From positions 1 to 40,511 of the IMG/VR virus record IMGVR_UViG_3300035698_007794: a stretch of DNA of 40,511 bases; one strand, written 5' to 3'. Under the pieces are notes generated by a model, which saw nothing but the letters and a program-made list of their open reading frames with translations, was not told the DNA's origin and did no database searches. Of the stretch, positions 24,328 to 24,634 are shown one piece after another. The position numbers and the translations under genes were made by a program. Numbering within the stretch: the stretch's first letter is position 1; every line of letters starts with the position of its first letter. Origin of the DNA: a virus.

Positions 24328-24416
24328 TTCTTTCGGGAACTTTGTAGTTGGTTCAGGATTAGACTCATACTCTAAAGAAACCATACACCGACTTCAGCCC
24401 TACCCGAAGAATTTTT
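24328..24416 (+). ncRNA. Y-RNA-like element 2
   Basis: The outer stem is TTCGGG (24332-24337) with CCCGAA (24403-24408), extended past a bulged T24331 by TTC/GAA. The internal loop begins AACTTTGT. The inner stem pairs AGTTGGT (24346-24352) with ACCGACT (24387-24393, one G-U). The head carries a perfect 5-bp hairpin TTAGA/TCTAA with loop CTCATAC (24359-24375). TTTTT follows at 24412-24416, so this element could end a transcript. CGGGAACT at 24334-24341 matches elements 3 and 4. Confidence 0.65.
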
Positions 24417-24429
24417 CACTATTCAATTA

Positions 24430-24500
24430 AAACGGGAACTTTTGATGCTATCCCCTGCTCTGCGGTGCAAGGTAGGTAACATCCACCCACCCCGTTTCTC
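24430..24500 (+). ncRNA. Y-RNA-like element 3
   Basis: Perfect 7-bp outer stem AAACGGG (24430-24436) with CCCGTTT (24491-24497), then internal loop AACTTTT. Inner pairing is GATG (24444-24447) with CATC (24480-24483), followed by CTA-CC/GGTAG (24448-24453 and 24471-24475, one bulge) and a CTGC/GCGG hairpin (24455-24465). A pyrimidine-rich tail follows. CGGGAACT at 24433-24440 is the shared word. It is the most diverged copy in its inner stem. Confidence 0.6.
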
Positions 24501-24561
24501 TTTTCTCATAAAACATTTAGGCTTAGTTTTACTAAGAATCGAGTTGTTGGGGTAACTCAAC

Positions 24562-24634
24562 CCGACGGGAACTGTGTCGTTAGTTCAGATTATGGAAATC
24601 AAACACTGACGACCAACTTACCTGTCGGACTTTT
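24562..24634 (+). ncRNA. Y-RNA-like element 4
   Basis: The outer stem pairs CCGACGGG (24562-24569) with CCTGTCGG (24621-24628), 8 bp with one G-U. Internal loops are AACTGT on the 5' side and CAACTTA on the 3' side. A 9-bp inner stem pairs GTCGTTAGT (24576-24584) with ACTGACGAC (24605-24613, one T-G). The head has GATT/AATC (24588-24600). TTTT follows at 24631. CGGGAACT at 24566-24573 and TTAGTTCAGATTA are shared with elements 1 and 2. This is the cleanest Y-RNA-like fold of the four. Confidence 0.68.

Follow-up and report, generated by a model that had tools for sequence, protein, structure and literature searches.

Vertebrate Y RNAs consist of an outer helix, an asymmetric internal loop, an inner helix and a variable loop, several of them serve one Ro protein, and to our knowledge none carries a tRNA head. 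The bacterial Y RNA YrlA, which neighbours the gene for the Ro60 protein Rsr, places a tRNA-like head that mimics the D, T and acceptor arms on a long basal stem (PMC8394870); its tRNA-like domain has been proposed as a possible competitive inhibitor of anticodon nuclease (PMC7790460). Phages also encode the Ro60 fold, as in the Ro60/TROVE genes of jumbo phages (PMC7824862, PMC7765460) and in Thermus phage phiLo (PDB 9l5y), but the jumbo-phage accounts, as excerpted, name the Ro gene and not an RNA set of the kind described here. TROVE genes further occur in 20 of 29 archaeal tRNA gene clusters, in a paper that makes no mention of Y RNA (PMC6333295). Here we analyze a 40.5-kb stretch of phage DNA (IMG/VR record IMGVR_UViG_3300035698_007794, positions 1 to 40,511; hereafter the window), in which four Y-type RNA elements, E0 to E3, precede the genes for a predicted Ro60-type ring protein and its ARPP-1/DUF6569 partner, a locus that is very probably a phage Ro–Y ribonucleoprotein module.

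Four Y-like RNAs beside a Ro-like gene

We inspected and folded region 24183-24640, where a sigma70-like promoter site is followed along the + strand by E0, E1, E2, E3 and the Ro-like gene. The features of the locus are as follows.

24152..24179, + strand: sigma70-type promoter-like site (TTGACA-16-TATCTT), 5' of E0
24187..24313, + strand: E0, Y-like RNA with a linear tRNA head (ARAGORN, Rfam tRNA, fold)
24328..24411, + strand: E1, Y-like RNA whose head has an anticodon-arm-shaped hairpin, TTAGA CTCATAC TCTAA (fold, pair-model scan)
24430..24497, + strand: E2, Y-like RNA with an internal-stem head (fold, pair-model scan)
24562..24628, + strand: E3, Y-like RNA with a small hairpin head, the best family match (z -4.47; 36.1 bits)
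24678..26309, + strand: 543-aa protein with a predicted Ro60 fold, a ring of helical repeats joined to a vWA domain that has the MIDAS motif DxSxS
26320..27324, + strand: 334-aa ARPP-1/DUF6569 protein, whose gene is the second in the conserved pair (Pfam E 4.8e-24)

Each element reads, from 5' to 3', outer helix, AACT loop, inner helix, head, inner helix, a loop of ~6-8 nt and outer helix; the inner helix of this common handle spans 8-10 bp, and the internal loop has AAC(T/G) on its 5' side and about 6-8 nt on its 3' side. A preliminary description of this DNA had placed three Y-like elements at 24328-24634, with outer and inner stems that differ between copies yet pair, and E1, E2 and E3 lie where it put them. 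Their outer stems pair as TTCTT(t)CGGG/CCCGAAGAA, AAACGGG/CCCGTTT and CCGACGGG/CCTGTCGG, respectively, whereas the inner stem is perfect in E3 (GTCGTTAGT/ACTGACGAC) and has one mismatch each in E1 and E2. The loop word that had been taken as fixed, CGGGAACT, held for AAC(T/G) only; CGGG instead forms the top of the outer stem, where it pairs with CCCG and varies along with that partner across relatives. Over 16 pairs in the four window copies, 87.5% of cells were standard pairs, compared with 64% in shuffled and 30-50% in slid arrangements, and 12 of the 16 pairs had changed on both sides, which bears out the claim of compensatory variation within one genome. Folded singly, E3 was significant (z -4.47) and E2 (-2.34) and E1 (-2.00) were moderate. 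E2 is the most divergent copy and is without the CAG word at the foot of its head. The E0 head was called as a tRNA by ARAGORN (24211-24284) and by Rfam (52.1 bits at 24214-24282), with the anticodon UGA within a 7-nt loop and a short variable loop, and the E0 outer stem has a single bulged A. The promoter-like site matches at 10 of 12 positions, and since shuffles average 1.0 such sites it is weak on its own.

With a basal two-helix stem, a conserved asymmetric internal loop and a linkage to Ro, these RNAs very probably belong to the Y RNA structural class. They resemble vertebrate Y RNAs (RF00019) in the order of helices and loops and in the presence of several RNAs per Ro protein, but differ from them in their loop words and in having no Rfam match. 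The system very probably works like a Ro–Y RNA system, although its RNAs are not members of the curated Rfam Y or YrlA families.

An AlphaFold model of the 543-aa protein, built on a 23-sequence alignment, reached a pLDDT of 86 and a pTM of 0.81, and the top six Foldseek matches to it were all Ro60/TROVE. The structural match to Ro60 (Foldseek E 2.6e-6, TM 0.53) scored Z 20.1 over 411 residues, nearly the whole length, with lower scores for the Thermus phage Ro60 (PDB 9l5y, Z 16.2) and Deinococcus Rsr (Z 12.1), and the MIDAS residues D369, S371 and S373 were invariant across the 23 homologues. A PDB sequence search with the protein found no match, and NCBIfam and PADLOC hold no model for either it or its ARPP-1 partner. 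The modeling thus assigns the protein a predicted Ro60 fold on a sequence branch outside Pfam TROVE, and the proposal of a Ro-like protein served by a set of RNAs agrees with both this predicted fold and the stems kept beside the gene.

Stem conservation in relatives

One profile scan with two sequences yielded 28 virus loci (protein identity 23-61%; loci are referred to by L numbers), whereas viral contigs scanned with a single protein gave no match; to these we added four plasmid loci and the phage record LR756500.1, whose module is that of L016. A rule-based search combined with reading then gave 61 elements in 23 loci, window included. Because MAFFT on 53-nt arms set the inner stem off by one base, stems were aligned as register-corrected 46-nt arms, which need no gaps after a lineage-specific shift of 1-2 bases in the 3' loop. 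Among the 57 elements from 22 loci outside the window, all 16 pairs showed compensated changes, 90.1% of cells were paired (37-47% when slid), double-changed cells numbered 402 against 124 in shuffles, and the covariation score was 1.017 against 0.251 shuffled and at most 0.22 slid. The spacing from AACT to the CAG at the head's foot was almost constant at 18-19 nt, and a fixed-word search of whole phage records returned mostly elements already in the set; the additions were one within a tRNA and a further short one in L005. The preliminary description had staked its reading on conservation of the stems in related phages, and these are kept, with extensive covariation, in phages and bacteria alike.

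A pair-scoring scan in Python replaced the head-less stem covariance model (R1), which gave no window match with an E value of 10 or below, since the excised head is longer than covariance search permits. Three tests with this pair model are less circular than the covariation counts. Trained on relatives only, the pair model ranked E3 (36.1 bits), E2 (24.0 bits) and E1 (22.0 bits) as the top three on the window + strand; the best score was 22.6 bits in 405 kb of shuffled sequence and 21.4 bits on the window - strand, so that E3 stands out on its score, whereas E1 and E2 are strengthened by their position. When each locus was left out in turn, the phage and plasmid loci gave 63 forward and 3 reverse matches in 351 kb. 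We also collected 25 prokaryote loci by protein alone (Planctomycetes, Actinobacteria, Bacteroidota, Desulfobacterales and others), which at >=20 bits gave 36 forward matches versus 2 reverse. Of the forward matches, 34 fell <1 kb upstream of the Ro gene, a zone that makes up 10% of the sequence; this set was 86.7% paired versus 25-46% when slid, and covariation holds in it. Chance hairpins or mobile repeats could account for E1 and E2 folding only moderately better than shuffles when taken alone, but the covariation in window and family, the pair-model scan, and the prokaryote positional and left-out-locus tests leave this explanation next to no probability.

The elements of the window and of many other loci immediately precede Ro on its own strand, an arrangement that would also suit a cis-acting leader of the Ro mRNA, with autoregulation by Ro binding its own 5' region. 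However, elements elsewhere lie kilobases off or downstream, at +4.3 to +4.9 kb relative to Ro in L020, -3.7 kb in L010 (one element) and L011, and -4.6 to -4.8 kb in L026, and a leader does not need several paralogues with different heads. A leader is therefore improbable, and the RNAs kilobases from Ro or downstream of it (L020, L010) argue for action in trans.

tRNA-like heads and inserted stems

The interchangeable heads of the preliminary description proved right but understated, as the heads on the shared stem vary in most loci, with as many as five in one locus; that tRNA-mimic heads are common in the family, and that the DUF6569/ARPP-1 gene is part of the module, was absent from it. 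Heads fall into linear tRNAs, circularly permuted tRNAs, anticodon-arm fragments and plain hairpins. ARAGORN called a tRNA in 23 of the 61 heads unrotated and in 10 more only after circular rotation (0 of 120 shuffled heads), and 6 of the 10 rotation-dependent calls were robust (at least 38 of 224 trimmings). Among 40 short heads, 17 have an anticodon-type 7-nt loop on a stem of at least 4 bp (shuffle mean 0.6, maximum 4), a count in which the L047 case is its T arm and some heads come from close relatives; the list enters the L032 head twice, without an anticodon match. Window E1 (CTCATAC) is one of the 17, and a T arm occurs in five bacterial short heads.

As in the YrlA/Rsr system, a neighboring Ro gene, a long basal stem and a tRNA-like head come together here, and YrlA-type permuted D, T and acceptor arms occur in some relatives (L010, L011, L020, L023, L024), whereas the E0-E3 heads are linear tRNA or short. 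The Rfam YrlA model matches relatives' permuted heads weakly, at 20.6-34.9 bits versus a curated threshold of 69, with 26.6-34.9 bits for those of L010, L020, L023 and L024. Several permuted heads keep ACCA in an acceptor hairpin, or a full anticodon arm opened at the variable loop (L019 3114, L024 3267, L014 3411). In permuted heads generally, the handle is attached at the variable loop or in the D/anticodon region. Unlike YrlA, this family has heads made of linear tRNAs that retain the whole anticodon arm, of tRNAs opened elsewhere, of anticodon-arm fragments and of hairpins, with several RNAs per genome. The linear tRNA heads may be new relative to Rfam and the literature compared, although an earlier description in bacterial Y RNA work is possible.

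In several Planctomycetes the module lies at the end of a tRNA array (24 tRNAs in L035, 17 in L041, 18 in L042, 28 in L045), and the near-identical tRNA heads of five Planctomycete Y RNAs vary chiefly in their anticodon loops (CUU, UUU, AUG):

L035, 4554: CTT
L037, 4610: TTT
L038, 1107: CTT
L040, 4453: ATG
L042, 4060: CTT

Given such real arrays nearby, the many tRNA-like heads and the NCCA that some keep at the acceptor (L018, L020), the stems might be precursor elements that aid tRNA excision, serving as an RNase III/P processing handle with heads that are working tRNAs or their relics. Against this, the heads carry anticodons unlike a decoding set, including stop and A34 anticodons (UUA, UCA, ACA, AGU, AUG, AAG), as well as Ser/Leu anticodons in heads that lack a long variable arm. 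Many heads, moreover, are permuted, contain no tRNA or have an acceptor stem that is cut short, and the stem's internal loop is conserved together with Ro. We consider a processing role very unlikely, and the Ro–Y reading suggests that some of what programs annotate as 'phage tRNAs' are the heads of Y RNAs and do not decode.

Two phages carry tRNA-like genes into which a Y stem is inserted:

L005, 10729-10869: tRNA of full Rfam model length (55.2 bits; ~70 extra bases), whose variable loop holds a closed hairpin that forms a perfect Y stem
L005, 10875-11007: tRNA of full Rfam model length (49.1 bits; ~70 extra bases), with an insert bearing a Y-like inner stem in the anticodon loop
L024, 4711-4851: tRNA-like gene with the Y stem replacing the D arm, full acceptor stem plus ACCA (z -4.61)
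L024, 3418-3565: second tRNA-like gene with Y-like arms in the D-arm region, intact acceptor stem plus NCCA (z -3.84); its minimum-energy fold does not resolve the Y stem cleanly

The clear cases have the fold of a permuted Y RNA with its ends moved to the acceptor. Though few, these examples support a genuine joining of two modules, handle and tRNA. As a separate observation, L010 encodes a tmRNA (1413-1768) directly beside a Y RNA with a permuted tRNA head (1260-1401).

Possible function and neighboring genes

ARPP-1/DUF6569, named DUF6569 in a plasmid record, lies near Ro in 50 of 58 loci; the Nostoc plasmids, L036 and L056-L059 are without it nearby, and in L027 it stands upstream of Ro. 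Its predicted action is on sugar or ADP-ribose moieties (PMC9503650). Neighbor clustering found Ro and ARPP-1 to be the only families recurring across loci and no conserved nuclease gene nearby; the partner gene appears to be ARPP-1 in place of the rtcBA of YrlA, although no search aimed at rtcBA, with its profiles as such, was made.

Y RNA biology and the conservation of the handle beside Ro suggest that Ro would bind the handle, and the head beyond the inner helix would be the working end, freely exchanged among a tRNA opened at its acceptor end, a permuted tRNA, a bare anticodon (plus T) arm and a plain hairpin. The ribonucleoprotein may then tether or decoy tRNA-handling enzymes, most likely as tRNA-like bait for tRNA-cleaving host defenses or by recruiting repair or decay enzymes to damaged tRNA, and a set of heads would widen the range of targets. 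We favor this adaptor or decoy role because a role against tRNA-cleaving defenses has been attributed to tRNA arrays and phage tRNAs (PMC10264068, PMC11555353, PMC12803027) and because of the anticodon-nuclease inhibitor proposal for YrlA (PMC7790460), and we advance a decoy function of the tRNA-mimic heads tentatively. Like the phage tRNAs that evade defense (PMC10264068, PMC11555353), these are tRNA-like molecules with varied anticodon loops, but those are taken as working tRNAs, whereas the tRNA shape in this family sits on a Ro-type stem. The Ro-type gene adjoining a tRNA array in several bacterial loci likewise recalls the archaeal TROVE/tRNA clusters (PMC6333295).

The main competing explanation is a Ro–Y ribonucleoprotein that, as in Deinococcus, where Y RNA joins Rsr to PNPase in the RYPER machine (PMC8394870, PMC7790460), uses the head to tether PNPase for degradation of structured RNA, with no link to defense. 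A single effector would not call for up to five heads per locus, and the lack of a conserved nuclease gene nearby also speaks against it, but PNPase would in that case come from the host; we consider this unlikely, if far more plausible than a leader or a processing handle. On the decoy reading, it is conceivable, if doubtful, that a mobile-element family grafts a Ro-binding Y stem onto tRNA at any opening (acceptor end, variable loop, anticodon loop, D arm) and in either circular order. Each phage would then have a set of tRNA mimics that can evolve and that blunts tRNA-cleaving immunity, while adjoining tRNA arrays would replace losses.

Several results count against the module or the decoy role. 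E0-E3 do not match Rfam Y RNA (RF00019) or YrlA (RF02553) at curated score; the TROVE profile matches neither the 543-aa protein (P0001) nor any of the 23 members; and no recognizable Y element lies near the divergent Ro plus ARPP-1 modules of L027-L030 (phage) and L031 (Alkaliphilus plasmid). Pairing was among the criteria by which elements were found, so the phage and prokaryote covariation counts lean to structure, a bias that the positional, window and left-out-locus tests do not share in full. Moreover, most phage short heads, E2 and E3 included, have no clear tRNA feature, and the decoy role is drawn by analogy.

The function of Y RNA heads has been studied in few bacteria. In this family a single stem and a single Ro protein come with dozens of heads, from whole tRNA down to an isolated anticodon arm, a natural series present both in phages and in tRNA arrays on plasmids or chromosomes. 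With it, a role of Ro–Y complexes in guarding, repairing or decoying tRNA becomes directly testable, and the unexplained ARPP-1/DUF6569 protein gains a fixed partner.

Ro-like genes appear to be interrupted by an in-frame stop or frameshift in L010 (5001-6638), L023 (4917-6239) and L032 (3998-4408), where assembly error is possible. A family of ~250-300-aa proteins, without a Pfam match in the three members scanned, occurs near modules in phages and a Planctomycete:

L005: 9087-9953
L021: 9342-10253
L026: 3781-4635
L027: 3081-3836
L045: 2002-2793

In the window, 28734-29117 on the - strand holds a GIY-YIG endonuclease-type gene (Pfam E 1.2e-11), likely a homing endonuclease.
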